Virus record (IMG/VR): IMGVR_UViG_3300044737_000084
Span: 1 to 22,288 of that record
DNA length: 22,288 nucleotides
Strand: one strand, 5' to 3'
Source of the DNA: a virus
Shown: positions 1,087 to 22,009 of the stretch, piece by piece
How positions within the stretch are numbered: position 1 is the stretch's first letter
How the letters are laid out: each line of letters opens with the position of its first letter
Program-made: the position numbers and the translations under genes
The notes under the pieces: model-generated
Database searches by the model: none
Told to the model about the DNA's origin: nothing
Seen by the model: the letters and a program-made list of their open reading frames with translations, nothing else

Positions 1087-1524
1087 ATGGCCGGCACCGA
1101 TCAACCGCTTTCGGGCAATCGCTTCAATCTCTACCGTATCGTCAACAACGCGCCGGTGTTCGTCTGCACGGCGGTCAACGTCACCTTCACCCAAACCAAG
1201 ACGTTTGATGACGCGACGATCCCGGATTGCAGCAACCCGATCGCGATCCCGACCCGCAAATCGGTGGTCAAGGAAAAGACCTGGGCAATGAATTTCGGCG
1301 GCAAGGCGGTGATGGCGCACTATACCGAGCTGCAGTCCGATTTCGACAGCGAGGGCGCGGTGCCGTATCGCATCGTCGCCACGCCGATCGACAACAATGG
1401 CGGCGGCCGCTGGGATGGCAATCTCCATCTCGAATCCCTCGAGCTGGGCAAGAACGACAACGGCATCGTCACCTTCACCTGCCAGGCGCGCGGCGACGGC
1501 GACATTCCGTTCACGGCGACCTGA
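1087..1524 (+). CDS. Major tail tube protein
   Basis: The 145-residue protein is the likely tail tube subunit (TP901-1/GTA-type major tail protein). It starts MAGTDQPLSGNRFNLYRI, continues with beta-rich sequence (TAVNVTFTQTKTFDDATIPD, WAMNFGGKAVMAHYTEL), and ends in the strand pattern LESLELGKNDNGIVTFTCQARGDGDI. Such C-terminal 'f.i..q..G.G...' strands are common in tube proteins. TAGGAG just upstream of ATG 1087 is a good ribosome site. It lies between the tail terminator and the tail assembly chaperone, where a tube gene is expected. No extra Ig-like domain is present, so the tube surface should be plain. Confidence 0.8.
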   Translation: MAGTDQPLSGNRFNLYRIVNNAPVFVCTAVNVTFTQTKTFDDATIPDCSNPIAIPTRKSVVKEKTWAMNFGGKAVMAHYTELQSDFDSEGAVPYRIVATPIDNNGGGRWDGNLHLESLELGKNDNGIVTFTCQARGDGDIPFTAT

Positions 1525-1922
1525 TGCAGACTTTCCTCCGACGTCCGTTCGCCGGCCGCGAGCGCACCTTCCAGCTGCGGTTTGGCGAGGCGGCCGAACT
1601 GGAGCGGCTCTGCAATGCCGGCATCGGCGCCATCATGGTGCGGCTGGCGACGCATCAGTTCTACACCTCCGACATACGCGAGCCGATCCGGCTCGGCCTG
1701 CAGGGCGGCGGCATGTCGGAGCCGGAAGCCACCGCGCTGATCATGGGCAATGTCGACGGCAAGCCGCTGGCAGGTCCGCATCTCGAACTCGCCTGCGACA
1801 TCATCGGCGCCTATGTGAACGGCATCCCCGACGAAATTAAAAAAAAAGCCGCTCCATCGCGGCCAAGGACACCGCGCCGCCGGGCGACCTCAGCCAGTGG
1901 TACCGCATCGGCGGCGCAATGA
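1524..1922 (+). CDS. Tail assembly chaperone, short (0-frame) product, GTA-gp10/TAC_11-like
   Basis: ATG 1524 overlaps the tube stop (TGATG). The 132-residue 0-frame product has the pattern of the GTA gp10 tail chaperone family: a beta start RPFAGRERTFQLRFGEAAELERL, then GIGAIMVRL, then a helical body ending CDIIGAYVNGIPDEIKKK at about residue 108. After a run of nine A (1839-1847) the 0 frame turns into Arg/Ala/Ser-rich sequence that looks non-coding in character, while the -1 frame carries good protein. This is the classic lambda G situation: the short form coats the tape measure during tail assembly, and a minority form is extended by frameshifting. It should be absent from the mature virion. 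Confidence 0.78.
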   Translation: MQTFLRRPFAGRERTFQLRFGEAAELERLCNAGIGAIMVRLATHQFYTSDIREPIRLGLQGGGMSEPEATALIMGNVDGKPLAGPHLELACDIIGAYVNGIPDEIKKKAAPSRPRTPRRRATSASGTASAAQ

Positions 1923-2080
1923 ACCGCCTGCCGGCGGAAGTCGACCGCGAAACCCCGGCGAGCCTTTGGGCGGCCTGGCAGGGTTTCAAACACTTCCACG
2001 GCATCAAGGACGCCGGCGGCGTCAGCGACGACGAATTCCTAGCGATCCTCGCCGAGGAACAGCGCGCCGGTCGGGCTTGA
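1524..2080 (+). CDS. Tail assembly chaperone, -1 frameshift fusion (lambda G-T type)
   Basis: If ribosomes slip one base back in the A9 run, the protein becomes about 185 residues: 108 from the 0 frame plus about 77 from the -1 frame. The -1 frame is open from the run to TGA 2078-2080 and reads SRSIAAKDTAPPGDLSQWY, then (from an internal ATG at 1919) a segment containing LWAAWQGFKHFHGIKDAGG and DDEFLAILAEE. That C-terminal piece resembles the small second chaperone encoded after gp10 in gene transfer agents. It could also be made independently from ATG 1919 as 53 residues, but no convincing ribosome site precedes it. The extended form is expected to bind the tape measure and recruit tube subunits. 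A sequencing error in the A run is the main alternative. Confidence 0.65.
1841..1847 (+). promoter_or_regulatory. Slippery heptamer for -1 ribosomal frameshifting
   Basis: The A9 run 1839-1847 gives the heptamer A-AAA-AAA in the 0 frame of the chaperone gene, followed by GCC. It is the only long homopolymer in the late operon, which otherwise is very GC-rich. The heptamer sits at the point where convincing protein sequence moves from the 0 frame to the -1 frame. The GC-rich bases just downstream (1848-1885) could fold and stimulate slippage, but I have not folded them. Confidence 0.65.
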
Positions 2081-2098: not shown

Positions 2099-4183
2099 AT
2101 GGCTAACGCGCCGCTGACGCTTCGGTTCGGTTCCGACGTAGAGGGAGCCAAGAGAGGCGTGGCGTCGCTCGCCACCTCGATCGCCAGCAACATGGCGACG
2201 GTTGCGGGGTCGGCACTGACGGCTGGAAAGACGGTCGCCGCCGCTGGACAAGGCATACTTTCGACATTCCAGGGGATCCAGCGCGCAGCCGGACTGATCA
2301 GCCCTGCTGTGTTCGCATTGGTGACGGGCTTTCTTTCGCTGAAGCTCGCCGAATCCGCGATCGCCGCCGTGAAGGATCAGCTGGCGACGCTTTTGGACGT
2401 CGCCAATAAATCGCGCGATCGCGGGGTATCGGCAGAGTTTTTTCAGGCGTTCATTGCCGGCGCGAAAGGCGCAGAGGATCGGGTCAAGGCCCTGGAAGAC
2501 GCCCTCGCCTCGGCGTTTCAGGCTACCAAAGCGATGCTCAATCCGGAATGGACGAACTGGAACGCCGGCATCGAAAACACGCTGGTCAAGGTTTCCGCGG
2601 TTGAGAAGGCGATGCGCGAGGCGCGCGAGCTCTTCACGACCGACCAGAACTTTTCCGGTTTCGACCTGTTCCGGAACGCGAAGGATCAGGACAGCAAAAT
2701 CAAGGCCGTCCTGCTCTACATGCAGCAGCTCAAGGCGATCGGCGCGGACGTCGCGGCACTCGATATCGGCGAGAAAATGTTTGGCGAAAAGTTCGCCGAC
2801 AAAATCAGGACCGGCGAAGAGTCGATCGACCGCATCGTCGAGACCCTCGACAAGGGCGGCAAGAACAACTTCATCTCGAACGAAGCCGCGAAAAACGCCA
2901 AGGAGCTCGACGACAGGCTGAACGATGCCTGGCACACGATCTCAGAGCGGATGAAGCCGGACTGGGACGATCTGGCCAATATTGCGCTGCGCATCAAGGG
3001 CGTCTGGACCCAGATCATCGAAGCGGTGGCGAACTACAAGGCGGCTGAACTGAAGGCGCGGCCGTTTGCGGGCGTCAACTCGACCAAGGATGAGGACGCG
3101 CGCAACAGCGACGACCCGAACACGCCTGCGTTCGGCAATCCGGTTCTTCTAAATCAGGGGCGCCGGCGCCGCGGCCAGGCTCCGGTGTTTGGTCCGACCG
3201 AGGAGATCGACGAATCGCGCGGGCTGAATATGACCCGCCGCCCAATGCCGGAGGAAGAAAAGGCCGAGCCTATTCCGATGCCGCGCCGGCGTCCCCAGGA
3301 CGCGCCGAAGCCCAAAAAGGAAGAGGACGAAAAGCTCGACCAGATCGAGACCCTGATCAACCTGATGACCCGGGCCAATGACACCTTGAAGGTGCAACTG
3401 GACACCGAAGGCAAGAGCAACGTCGAGCGCGAAAAAGGCATTGCGCTCGCCAAAGCGGAGGCCGCGGCGCGCCAGGCGCAGCGCGATTTGACTGAGGAGG
3501 AGAAAAGCAAGGTCCTGGCGCTGGCGGAGGCGCATGCCACCCTCGCCGCCAAGCTCAAGGACGTGCAGCAGGCCTTGGCGGCGAACGCGGAAAATGCGCG
3601 CTTGTTCGGCAATGCCGCTTCCGGCGCGCTCGGTTCAATCTGGATTGACGGCCAGAAGGCCAACGACGTGCTCGGCAATCTTCTGAAGCAACAGGCGAAG
3701 TTCGCGCTGCAGGCCGGGTTCACCGGCCAGGGACCGCTCGCCAGCCTGCTCGGGCTGTCGACCGCGGCCAGCGCCGGCCCCAACGCGGTCGGCGGCATCA
3801 CCGGCCTGATCGGCAAGCTTCTCGGGTTCAATTTCGGCGGCGCCACCGGATCTGCGGCATCGAATGCGGCCTCGGGCTTTACCAGCAACGACTTCGCGAT
3901 CTTTCGCGCCGGCGGCGGCGACGTCAAAGCCGGCCGCACCTATACGGTCGGCGAAACCGGCATGGAGAAATTCGTCCCCGGCGCCGACGGCAAGATTTTT
4001 CCGGTCGGCAACGCCGGCGCCGGCGGCGGCACGACCACCAATCATATCCTGGTCGACGTCACCGGCGCCACCGGCAACGCCGAGATCGCGCGCATGGTCA
4101 ATGTCGGCATGCAGGCGGCCTACGCCCGCGCAATCGCGGCCGCGCCCGGCGCCGTCATCGAGCACCAGCGGCGGCGCGCATGA
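2099..4183 (+). CDS. Tail tape measure protein
   Basis: At 694 residues this is the tape measure, the rod inside the tail that sets its length. It has an Ala-rich helical N-terminus, a hydrophobic stretch around residues 64-92 (ISPAVFALVTGFLSLKLAES), and long helical sections. A charged, Pro/Arg-rich linker spans about 320-405 and a coiled coil about 411-500. A Gly/Ala-rich part follows, and the C-terminal signature YTVGETGMEKFVPGADG lies near 613-629 (the 'GE.GpE.fvP' motif of lambda H-type proteins). Using the usual 0.15 nm per residue, the tail would be roughly 100 nm. It follows the two-frame chaperone, the standard order, and overlaps the next gene by four bases. Confidence 0.92.
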   Translation: MANAPLTLRFGSDVEGAKRGVASLATSIASNMATVAGSALTAGKTVAAAGQGILSTFQGIQRAAGLISPAVFALVTGFLSLKLAESAIAAVKDQLATLLDVANKSRDRGVSAEFFQAFIAGAKGAEDRVKALEDALASAFQATKAMLNPEWTNWNAGIENTLVKVSAVEKAMREARELFTTDQNFSGFDLFRNAKDQDSKIKAVLLYMQQLKAIGADVAALDIGEKMFGEKFADKIRTGEESIDRIVETLDKGGKNNFISNEAAKNAKELDDRLNDAWHTISERMKPDWDDLANIALRIKGVWTQIIEAVANYKAAELKARPFAGVNSTKDEDARNSDDPNTPAFGNPVLLNQGRRRRGQAPVFGPTEEIDESRGLNMTRRPMPEEEKAEPIPMPRRRPQDAPKPKKEEDEKLDQIETLINLMTRANDTLKVQLDTEGKSNVEREKGIALAKAEAAARQAQRDLTEEEKSKVLALAEAHATLAAKLKDVQQALAANAENARLFGNAASGALGSIWIDGQKANDVLGNLLKQQAKFALQAGFTGQGPLASLLGLSTAASAGPNAVGGITGLIGKLLGFNFGGATGSAASNAASGFTSNDFAIFRAGGGDVKAGRTYTVGETGMEKFVPGADGKIFPVGNAGAGGGTTTNHILVDVTGATGNAEIARMVNVGMQAAYARAIAAAPGAVIEHQRRRA

Positions 4184-13271: not shown

Positions 13272-13415
13272 ATGCCAGCCTCCGCAATCCTCGCGGCGGC
13301 GGCGCGGGCAACGCCTTCGGCAATGGTGATCGGCTGCAAGACGCACCACCTCAGCCTCTCCGGGCAAGGCCCGACGCCCGATCAATCCCCCATCATCGTC
13401 AAGGATAAGTCATGA
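13272..13415 (+). CDS. Possible 47-residue protein before the endolysin
   Basis: In the 185-base gap between spike and endolysin, ATG 13272 opens a 47-residue frame whose stop (TGA 13413-13415) overlaps the endolysin ATG in the ATGA arrangement used throughout this operon. The peptide has an Ala-rich hydrophobic start (ILAAAARATPSAMVIGC) with a lipobox-like VIGC near residues 18-21, then KTHHLSLSGQ. It could be a small lipoprotein, but the N-terminus lacks the usual early positive charges and the ribosome site is weak. The longer frame 13214-13408 looks like a shadow. Treat as tentative. Confidence 0.35.
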   Translation: MPASAILAAAARATPSAMVIGCKTHHLSLSGQGPTPDQSPIIVKDKS

Positions 13416-14689
13416 CCGACGACGCATCGTTCGGCGCCGCGCTTGCGCGCCTGTGGCCGCGAGCTCCCCAGCCATTGCTCGACGGCATCATCGCCACCGC
13501 GCCGGCGGTGTTCGAAAAGTACGGCTTTACGCCGCTGCTACAAGTGCACTGCATGGCGCAGATCAGCCACGAATGCGGGCAGGGCCGCGAGCTCGTCGAA
13601 AACGGCAATTATTCGCCGGAGGGCATCGTCAAGACCTGGCCGTCGCGCTTCCATTCGCTGGCCGAGGCGATTCCGTTCGCCCACAATGCGCGGGCGCTGT
13701 TCAACAAGGTCTACACCGGCCGCATGGGCAACCTGCCCGGCTCCGACATGGGCTGGACCTTTCGCGGCCGCGGCGCGACCAACACCACCGGCCATGACGG
13801 TTATTACGCGCTGGCGCAAAGGACCGAGCTGGATCTGGTGAACGATCCGGACCTCGTCAACAAGCCGGAATTGTTCCTGGAATGCGGGGTGGTGGATTTC
13901 ATCCTGTGCGGCTGCGTCCCGTTCGCCAAGGCCGACGACGTCCGCAATGTCACCCGCCACCTCAATGGCGGGCTTATAGGGCTCGCCCAGCGCGAGGTCT
14001 GGCTGAAGGCGTGGAAGTCCGCGCTGCTGCCGCTGCACGGCCAGGAGGCGCTTTTCCCGCAGCCTGCGGCCCGTGCCGAGGGCGAGCTTCGTTTCGGCGA
14101 CCGCGGTTTTGAGGTGAAGGGCCTGCAGGCCGGCCTGAAGGCCGCGAACTATGCCTGCGGAACCGACGACGGCGACTATTTCGAGGGTACCCGCGGCGCG
14201 GTCGCCAAATTCCAGCTCGACCACGGGCTGCCGTCCACCGGAATCGCCGATGCGGCCACCAAGCAAGCCCTGGCCAAGTCCCCGGGCGCGCCGATCGCCG
14301 AGGCGCGCGCCACCGCCACCGTTGGGGATCTGCGGCAAGCCGGCTCGCGCACCGTTGCCGGCGCCGACCGGGTCGGGTTCATCGGGTGGGTCAAGACCTT
14401 GTTTGGAATCGGCACCGGTACCGCCGCCGTTACCGCGGGCGGCTCCGAGCGAGGCGCGCCGGATTTCGACACCATCCAGGCCGGCATCGACAAGGCGCAG
14501 CAGGCCGCCGGCATGTTCGACCAGGTCAAGCTGCTGGCAAAGCCGCTGGTGGCGCTGCTGGCGCACCCGGCGGTGCTGCCGATCGCGGCCGCGATAGCGC
14601 TCGCCGGCATCCTGCTGCTGATGGAATCGCATCGCATCAAGCGTGCGAGGCTCGAGGATCACCGCTCCGCGGCGAATATGGGGCGCTGA
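13412..14689 (+). CDS. GH19-type endolysin with peptidoglycan-binding domain and C-terminal membrane segment
   Basis: This 425-residue enzyme degrades host peptidoglycan at lysis. Residues 1-205 form a GH19 chitinase/lysozyme-type domain. MAQISHECGQGRE (48-60) supplies the likely catalytic Glu54, and MGWTFRGRGATNTTGHDGYY (113-132) is the GH19 'yRGRG.iqlTGr.nY' motif, with further family sequence to WLKAWK (197-202). Residues 225-290 are a peptidoglycan_binding_1 domain (LRFGDRGFEVKGLQAGLKAA, then GAVAKFQLDHGLPSTGIAD). A linker leads to a hydrophobic segment at 384-404 and a basic tail RIKRAR. ATG 13412 has AAGGA six bases upstream. There is no N-terminal signal peptide, so export needs a holin or the unusual C-terminal anchor. 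Confidence 0.9.
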   Translation: MTDDASFGAALARLWPRAPQPLLDGIIATAPAVFEKYGFTPLLQVHCMAQISHECGQGRELVENGNYSPEGIVKTWPSRFHSLAEAIPFAHNARALFNKVYTGRMGNLPGSDMGWTFRGRGATNTTGHDGYYALAQRTELDLVNDPDLVNKPELFLECGVVDFILCGCVPFAKADDVRNVTRHLNGGLIGLAQREVWLKAWKSALLPLHGQEALFPQPAARAEGELRFGDRGFEVKGLQAGLKAANYACGTDDGDYFEGTRGAVAKFQLDHGLPSTGIADAATKQALAKSPGAPIAEARATATVGDLRQAGSRTVAGADRVGFIGWVKTLFGIGTGTAAVTAGGSERGAPDFDTIQAGIDKAQQAAGMFDQVKLLAKPLVALLAHPAVLPIAAAIALAGILLLMESHRIKRARLEDHRSAANMGR

Positions 14690-20502: not shown

Positions 20503-20801
20503 CACGAGGGCTCGCTTGGTCCGGGTGCGAGAATGCCGGCGAGCTCATCGACGCTGGTCGCCAGCTCGTAAGCCAGGCGCTGCAAGTCGACCTCGACATC
20601 AAGCCCGACAAAATACGACGCCGGCCGCGCAGGTCTGCTGGCGGCCGGTTCATCGGGAATGGAGCGGATGAAGCGAATCCCCGCTTTCATCTCGACGACT
20701 TGGCGCATCACCCGCAACAGCTTGTTTCGGGTTGCGACCAGCACGTCAGCCGGCGCCGGGGCGACGTCGGCGGTGAGTTCAGCAATCGAGGTGTCGGTCA
20801 T
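20502..20801 (-). CDS. Small hypothetical protein (99 aa)
   Basis: ATG 20801 overlaps the initiator stop (ATGA) and has AAAGGAAA just upstream. The product includes a helical section ([20 protein letters not shown]) and [16 protein letters not shown], then [20 protein letters not shown] and VDELAGIL. Tight coupling to the initiator suggests a role in replication or control. The longer upstream frame extends into the initiator gene and looks non-coding. Confidence 0.7.
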
Positions 20802-22009
20802 GACGCTTTCCTTTCGAGTTTCACAGCTACGGGGTTGAGCGGCAGTTTCGTCTGATCCTTGAACCGAAGCTCCCTGGTGCCGGCCTGCAGGACGTCGCGG
20901 AACTGAGCGCCGGCGAGCTGGCGCGCCGCGGCATCGGCGATGATGCGGCGCAGGCCGCTGGGATCGTCGCCGCAGCGCTTCAGCCAGCCCCAGATCGCCG
21001 CCGCCGCCTTGTCGGGCGCATAGCCCATCGCCTCGCCGACCAGCGGCACGCCCTCGTCGACCAGCCAACGCGCGTCGGGGTGTTCGGGGCGCGCCGGCGA
21101 AGCCGGCTTCGCGGCGATCGCAACGAGCCGCAAAATCTCGGGATGGTCGGCACGGACGCATTCGAGAACCGCGGTCTCGAAATGGGTTTTGACGTGGTTG
21201 GCGTGAAACTGGTTGGGCAAGATCAGCGTCACGGCGTCGGGTGCCAAGCTGGCCCCTGTCAGTTTTTCCCCGAACCAGGATGCGAACACTTCCTCGCCAA
21301 GCCGCTGCTTCAGCCGCGCGCGAAGCCTTTCGAGGTCTTGCTTTGGCGGCGGACCGCCAGCGCCTTCAGGCGCGCTGGCGGCTTCGCCGCCCTGCAAAGG
21401 AAGAGATAAAGTTTTCTCTAAAGTAATAGGGGGGCCATTTTGGCCCCTGTTTTCGGCACTTTTTGGCACCTGTTCCGGACCATTTTGGCCCCTATCAGCC
21501 TCCGATAGGGGCCATTTTGGCACCTGTGGCGTTTCAGACAGGGGCCATTTTGGCACCTGTTTTTCCGGATCGAGCACCGGCCGGTAGCGGTTCGACCGAC
21601 CCGCCTTCCGGACTTCAAAATACCCGGTGTCAAGCAGCGCCGCGATCGCCCGCTTGACCGTGCGAAGGCCAAGGCCAAGTTTGTCTTTCAGGTAGGTTTC
21701 ATCCGTCGGCAGCACCTCGCCGGTGCGCGCGTCGAGCCTCGACAGCAATTCACCACCTACCGCGCGCGTCGCGCCGGTCAGCCGGGGATCGCGGCGAACG
21801 CGATCCATTGCTGCAAGCTTTTTGGCGTTGAACGCCCTGAGGGCTTCGTCGCGGGTCACGGCGGCGCCCCGCAGAGAACCATCCGGTCCCTTGACAACCG
21901 GGCGGCAGATTTCCCTTCGAACTTTGGTCGAGTGCCTTTCTTGGTCTGGAGTACCGGGCGTCCGGCCGGCGCGGAATTGCTGGTGCTGCTCGATGCGGCC
22001 ATCGCTCAC
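20798..22009 (-). CDS. Phage replication initiator: winged helix plus DnaA domain-I-like region
   Basis: The 403-residue protein has three parts. Residues 58-147 form a winged-helix domain: GATRAVGGELLSRLDARTGE, YLKDKLGLGLRTVKRAIAAL, DTGYFEVRKAGRSNRYRPV, like helix-turn-helix_36 in phage and plasmid initiators. Residues 148-205 are a repetitive linker encoded by the iterons, with two copies of QVPKWPLSE and two of RGQNGP. Residues 226-300 resemble the DnaA N-terminal domain (RLRARLKQRLGEEVFASWF, VTLILPNQFHANHV), a helicase-interaction module. A helical C-terminus follows. The expected role is binding the iterons and recruiting the host DnaB helicase. Start is GTG 22009, overlapping the previous stop (GTGA). 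Confidence 0.82.
   Translation of the reverse strand: MSDGRIEQHQQFRAGRTPGTPDQERHSTKVRREICRPVVKGPDGSLRGAAVTRDEALRAFNAKKLAAMDRVRRDPRLTGATRAVGGELLSRLDARTGEVLPTDETYLKDKLGLGLRTVKRAIAALLDTGYFEVRKAGRSNRYRPVLDPEKQVPKWPLSETPQVPKWPLSEADRGQNGPEQVPKSAENRGQNGPPITLEKTLSLPLQGGEAASAPEGAGGPPPKQDLERLRARLKQRLGEEVFASWFGEKLTGASLAPDAVTLILPNQFHANHVKTHFETAVLECVRADHPEILRLVAIAAKPASPARPEHPDARWLVDEGVPLVGEAMGYAPDKAAAAIWGWLKRCGDDPSGLRRIIADAAARQLAGAQFRDVLQAGTRELRFKDQTKLPLNPVAVKLERKAS
21401..21428. other. AT-rich tract beside the iterons (putative unwinding element)
   Basis: 22 of 28 bases are A or T, in a region that is otherwise very GC-rich. Read in the direction of the initiator gene it follows the iterons directly, the same order as in lambda O. 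This is where an origin would be expected to melt first. Confidence 0.65.
21428..21560. repeat. Five iteron-like palindromic repeats inside the initiator gene (putative origin)
   Basis: A unit of the type GGGGCCA-TTT-TGGCACC-TGT occurs at 21431-21450, 21454-21473 (degenerate), 21476-21495, 21508-21527 and 21541-21560. Starts are 23, 22, 32 and 33 bases apart, close to two or three helical turns. The copy at 21541 extends to a 23-bp near-palindrome (21538-21560), and the first copy is a perfect GGGGCCA/TGGCCCC inverted repeat. Because 33 is a multiple of three, two copies encode QVPKWPL; other copies are read in another frame as GQNGP. Confidence 0.8.

Follow-up and report, generated by a model that had tools for sequence, protein, structure and literature searches.

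Predicted programmed −1 frameshifting in the tail assembly chaperone gene of a virus contig, with counterparts in related phages and, possibly, in gene transfer agents

For phage lambda a two-product tail assembly chaperone made by −1 frameshifting is established and, as PMC5009743 presents it, such chaperones are widely conserved; the same source covers how the two lambda products share the work and cites Xu, Hendrix and Duda (2004) for the conserved frameshift of long-tailed phages. For Rhodobacter capsulatus phages a frameshift in the chaperone genes has been described as usual (PMC8601537), and in the gene transfer agents (GTAs) tail chaperones 1 and 2 are named as separate genes (PMC11409702). 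The locus considered here lies in the IMG/VR virus record IMGVR_UViG_3300044737_000084, a single contig of 64.7% GC whose positions 1–22,288 were all analysed and are referred to below as the window. Like lambda G/GT, its chaperone gene lies between those for the major tail protein and the tape measure protein, and combines a short 0-frame product with a predicted longer −1 fusion. It differs from lambda in protein family, with PF11836 and phrog_18467 where lambda has G and T, and also in motif, the slip motif of lambda being G_GGA_AAG and that of the window A_AAA_AAA within a run of nine A's (A9). Comparative sequence evidence makes it highly probable, in our judgement, that the locus, in the manner of lambda G/GT, specifies two tail assembly chaperone products by means of programmed −1 ribosomal frameshifting. 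The features on which the argument draws are the following.

1087–1524, + strand: likely major tail (tube) protein, 145 aa, from a weak Phage_tail_2 match and its position
1524–1922, + strand: 0-frame, G-like tail assembly chaperone, 132 aa, from PF11836, phrog_8985 and an AlphaFold model
1524–2080, + strand: predicted trans-frame, G-T-like product, 185 aa, by joined translation
1838–1840, + strand: TAA in the −1 frame, read from the sequence, which overlaps the A run and closes the −1 frame directly 5′ of the heptamer
1841–1847, + strand: slippery heptamer A_AAA_AAA, tandem Lys codons, in phase
1847–2080, + strand: T-like domain in the −1 frame plus stop codon, 77 residues added after the slip
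1848–1863, + strand: 5-bp hairpin abutting the slip site, for which a stimulatory role is not supported
1874–1917, + strand: stronger stem, 26 nt 3′ of the slip site, a candidate
1919–1921, + strand: ATG overlapping the 0-frame stop (ATGA), the only −1-frame start codon, inside the conserved domain
2099–4183, + strand: tape measure protein, 694 aa, from phrog_10574 (tail length tape measure protein, E 2.4e-15)

The order major tail protein, chaperones, tape measure is that of lambda. Upstream of the chaperone are a gene for a tail completion or terminator protein and that for the likely major tail protein, whose match to Phage_tail_2 (E 6e-4) is below the curated cut-off; the latter gene immediately precedes the chaperone gene, as it does in the annotated relatives L002–L005, and its stop codon (1522–1524) shares one base with the chaperone start. 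The tape measure gene is directly downstream. Further away in the window are an endolysin gene (13412–14689, + strand) and, on the opposite strand, a replication-initiation-like gene (20798–22009, − strand).

Translated from ATG 1524 to TGA 1920–1922, the 0-frame product belongs to PF11836 (Phage_TAC_11, GTA-gp10; E 6e-21, 74.8 bits against a gathering cut-off of 27.8) and matches phrog_8985 at E 2.9e-24. The AlphaFold model of this first domain is confident (pLDDT 94.8). Searched against BFVD, it has tail assembly chaperones among its named matches, and a fold search of the PDB gave no significant match. Pfam and PHROG label the family ‘tail tube protein’; position and fold matches indicate an assembly chaperone.

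The A9 run, at 1839–1847 on the + strand, is the sole homopolymer of at least 7 nt in the window, the next longest being of 6. A preliminary description, made from this DNA alone, had noted that the run gives A_AAA_AAA, and the heptamer is indeed present and in phase, its 0-frame codons being AAA 1842–1844 and AAA 1845–1847. Also correct was its reading that the protein sequence crosses from the 0 to the −1 frame at the run, since the PF11836 frame meets the −1 frame at the heptamer, and that the second gene is open in the −1 frame back to the slip site: from the TAA at 1838–1840 that frame is open over 1841–2077, to a TGA at 2078–2080. The products of 132 and about 185 residues that it anticipated agree with the lengths of 132 and 185 aa predicted from the frames. 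Given that TAA, entry from the 0 frame is possible only at A_AAA_AAA or later, and no other X_XXY_YYZ heptamer occurs within the open −1 frame. The tail genes of the window contain 4 such in-phase heptamers in about 3,200 codons, so that about 0.025 would be expected by chance in the stretch of roughly 20 codons to which the shift is confined. In the −1 frame of the window the second domain has no start codon ahead of it.

Is the arrangement peculiar to this phage? Neither blastn against phages nor scans of viral contigs with either single domain as query gave a match. A profile search of IMG/VR with five homologs yielded 334 relatives, the best 80 of which were kept, and further relatives were taken from genomes, either of isolates or assembled from metagenomes (mostly Methylobacterium, one Methylocella), and from phage records. 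With the second domain located by profile in any frame and clusters cut at 85% nucleotide identity, it lies in the −1 frame in 53 of the 55 clusters of this sample, which includes the best 80 of the 334 IMG/VR relatives. In the other two it is in the 0 frame as an in-frame fusion. These single-frame fusions, at 2986–3558 of L002 (Rhizobium phage RHph_X2_26) and at about 2501–3040 of L085 (an IMG/VR prophage), look as if the frameshift was lost, and being plain fusions they imply that some lineages can do without two products. Relatives with the two as independent genes, the pattern that the preliminary description had set against its own reading, were sought and not found among the phages.

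Addition of 12 prophages met in an order-wide survey gave 65 loci with a −1 second domain, among which some redundancy is possible. A heptamer or a G5 site is present near the junction in 64 of them (X_XXY_YYZ in 38, G5 in 26), and in 25 of the 65 the last −1 stop is no more than 10 nt 5′ of the motif, the same tight layout as in the window. The register is constant over motifs that are not: GGGAAAN in 29 loci, GGGGGAR in 24, AAAAAAN in 5, CCCAAAN in 2 and a few others. In the phages with GGGGGAR, which is not among the classical tandem-slip heptamers, the exact point of the shift is less certain. Of the two features that had been put forward for comparison among relatives, the −1 register is the one that is kept; in most relatives GGGAAAN or GGGGGAR stands where the window has the long A run. 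A run of nine A's is, though, found at the same junction in two further distant relatives, L080 (2810–2818) and L155 (1806–1814 in the oriented sequence).

From the slip site as far as the 0-frame stop, the −1 frame of the window aligns with that of five relatives so well that only 0–6 of 1000 shuffles score as highly, as against 254–569 of 1000 when the same five are compared in the 0 frame; conservation in the −1 and not in the 0 frame indicates that the stretch is kept for the −1 product. What is directly observed at the locus, then, is its anatomy, the homology of its parts, a conserved register and conserved −1 protein sequence. Register, motifs and −1-only conservation together bear out the central claim of the preliminary description, that of a programmed −1 frameshift in the tail chaperone, which the comparison of relatives makes very likely. 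Its implication that the frameshift sets this locus apart is not supported: to judge from the sequences compared, frameshifting is the norm for phages with a PF11836-type chaperone, the phenomenon is a known one, and the window phage is no oddity. The merit of the locus is that it shows a conserved recoding event in clean form.

Could the A9 run be a sequence or assembly error, with a true run of A10 and one ordinary fused gene, or could the gene be decayed? The sequence is that of one virus contig and in-frame fusions of both domains do exist (L002 and L085), but A9 yields exactly the register of the 53 clusters, among isolate genomes and phage records that register recurs at sites with no long homopolymer, and both domains are intact and conserved. 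An error is scarcely probable at all. Only a little less improbable is that there are two independent or coupled genes, with initiation at ATG 1919 giving a free protein of 53 aa. The window shares its ATGA overlap with a few near relatives, and a start codon overlaps the g10 stop in many GTA copies. However, a start at 1919 would remove the first conserved helix of the domain (Y..GGAM), and the −1-frame residues 5′ of that ATG are conserved. Moreover, in 52 of the 65 −1 loci the second domain is not preceded by an ATG, GTG or TTG, and the 0-frame stop of the relatives is scattered between 74 nt ahead of the second-domain start and 49 nt beyond it, which argues against a conserved stop-start overlap.

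Two described phages, Rhizobium phage 16-3 (p015/p016) and Labrenzia phage vB_LagS-V1, have the same two domains as the window with the second in the −1 frame, and differ from it in having G5 or GGGAAAG in place of A7; in LagS-V1 G_GGA_AAG is directly before the 0-frame stop. Both (L005 2977–3539 and L003 2980–3521, respectively) are annotated as two separate genes despite the −1-frame position of the second domain, and their records seem to miss a fusion product. The closest relatives are prophages of Methylobacterium and Methylocella (L091–L095, L256–L266), with 47–57% first-domain identity and the same junction and register. Two of them, Methylocella L094 and L265, have A_AAA_AAA as the window does; mostly, though, the motif in this group is GGGAAAN, accompanied by a covarying stem about 5 nt downstream that the window is without.

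That stem was seen in eleven near relatives, including L265, starting about 5 nt 3′ of the heptamer. Changes on both sides are found at 4 of its 11 pairs and 94% of cells are paired, versus 48–76% in slid versions, figures biased in favour of the stem as the two arms of the alignment were joined by hand and the structure was derived from the same sequences. Nevertheless, its A-U to G-C and C-G to G-C exchanges would be hard to obtain otherwise. Over 53 clusters, which are not independent, the 60 nt after the slip have a mean z of −1.17 compared with −0.26 for a control stretch in the first domain (p = 0.001). No stem of the near-relative kind was found about 5 nt 3′ of the slip in the window or in L094, and folding of the window gave no convincing stable structure about 5–9 nt 3′ of the slip. 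The stretch 1848–1885, to which the preliminary description had looked for a structure, is unremarkable, with only the 5-bp hairpin (z = 0.09 for 1848–1880). The region of the stem at 1874–1917 has z = −2.88 when folded as 1848–1925 but −1.15 as 1853–1925. The long A run of the window may make up for the missing stem.

An A run can also act at the level of transcription. Nine A's are enough for polymerase slippage to be plausible, and were RNA polymerase to add an A there, part of the mRNA would have A10 and encode the same long protein, about 185 residues, as an in-frame fusion, with or without ribosomal slippage in addition. The A9 of L080 and L155, at the same place, is in keeping with this. 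Against it, most relatives have GGGAAAN or GGGGGAR there, with far shorter A runs, so that slippage of the polymerase on A's cannot be the mechanism that was inherited; the phasing of the heptamer is exact, and the covarying stem of the near relatives is a feature of ribosomal frameshifting. A contribution from the polymerase in the window phage is accordingly unlikely, though it deserves more credence than either an error or two genes.

With ribosomal frameshifting as the preferred reading, most ribosomes would stay in the 0 frame and synthesize the 132-aa G-like protein, and a minority would slip back one base on A_AAA_AAA to yield the 185-aa G-T-like protein with its helical −1 domain. By analogy with lambda, many copies of the short chaperone would coat the tape measure protein, the product of the adjacent gene, the rare long form would recruit the major tail protein, and both chaperones would then leave. 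The slippage itself, its efficiency and the roles of both products are what we infer here.

The −1 domain is modelled by AlphaFold as helical (pLDDT 90.5), and a fold search of BFVD with it gave nothing significant. The window's own version matches phrog_18467 weakly (E 0.009), and all 34 members of the −1 domain alignment A4 (window 1871–2077) match it, the best at E 7.8e-30. By this means phrog_18467, whose function was so far unassigned, gains a likely role as a tail chaperone domain encoded in the −1 frame. To PF09550 (Phage_TAC_6) the window domain has no match and 6 of the 34 relatives match weakly (best E 0.0048); profile-profile comparison of the −1 domain with a GTA set, every member of which matches PF09550, gave E 6e-6 and a probability of 85%. 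The domain is on this basis a remote relative of PF09550, GTA chaperone 2.

What then of the GTAs themselves? Their g10 and g10.1/g10.5 (PF11836 and PF09550) resemble the locus of the window in that the first domain is homologous, the second remotely so and usually in the −1 register; they differ in being described as two separate genes and in having a second domain that matches PF09550, of which that of the window falls short. Among the GTA copies of PF11836 (L100, L102, L108–L138, L168–L250) chaperone 2 is for the most part in the −1 register to g10. In 93 GTA copies with a second chaperone, taken from Hyphomicrobiales genomes, the register of the second domain is −1 in 82, +1 in 8 and 0 in 3. 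No ATG, GTG or TTG precedes the second domain in 42 of the 82 −1 copies (8 of these 42 have CTG), and an in-phase heptamer is present in 36 of the 42 start-less copies versus 11 of the 40 with a start (p = 1.2e-7). This tendency of heptamer and start to be mutually exclusive has p = 0.0012 with one copy per 70% identity cluster and p = 0.06 with one per 60% cluster. Some of the motifs counted (AAACCCT, and CCCTTTC in conserved FPW codons) may be by-products of protein sequence; when only GGGAAA, AAAAAA or CCCAAA is counted the comparison is 12 versus 1 (p = 0.0016). In seven copies GGGAAAG (six of them) or GGGGGGA ends directly at the g10 stop. L113, L178, L207, L216, L219 and L224 are examples of copies with G_GGA_AAG immediately ahead of that stop and no start codon in the second frame. 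A smaller class-wide sample gave a similar picture, and RNA structure after the GTA heptamers is weak (mean z −0.69 versus −0.22, p = 0.20).

These patterns suggest frameshifting at g10/g10.1 in Hyphomicrobiales GTAs, for which our literature search found no paper reporting it. The preliminary description had the GTA-gp10-type chaperone as usually accompanied by a separate second gene, which is true of GTA annotation and doubtful for about half of the GTA copies examined. We would put at about even the chance that the −1 link of chaperones 1 and 2 is common to these phages and alphaproteobacterial GTAs, with many GTAs making chaperone 2 only as a frameshifted g10 fusion and others having swapped the shift for an overlapping start codon. 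This GTA side, a comparative inference, is the newer part of the findings, and through it one can test whether the GTAs, which are studied as cellular gene-exchange machines, need ribosomal frameshifting to assemble their tails.

PF11836 genes are also met outside tail modules. The plasmid matches L006–L010 were excluded as comparators, their PF11836 gene being in a head module and without a second chaperone. In L006, L007 and L009 it is near 2480–2900, between portal and protease/capsid genes and with no second chaperone domain; in L139, L141, L143, L146, L157 and L158 PF11836 is likewise between portal and protease/capsid genes, an odd site for a tail chaperone.
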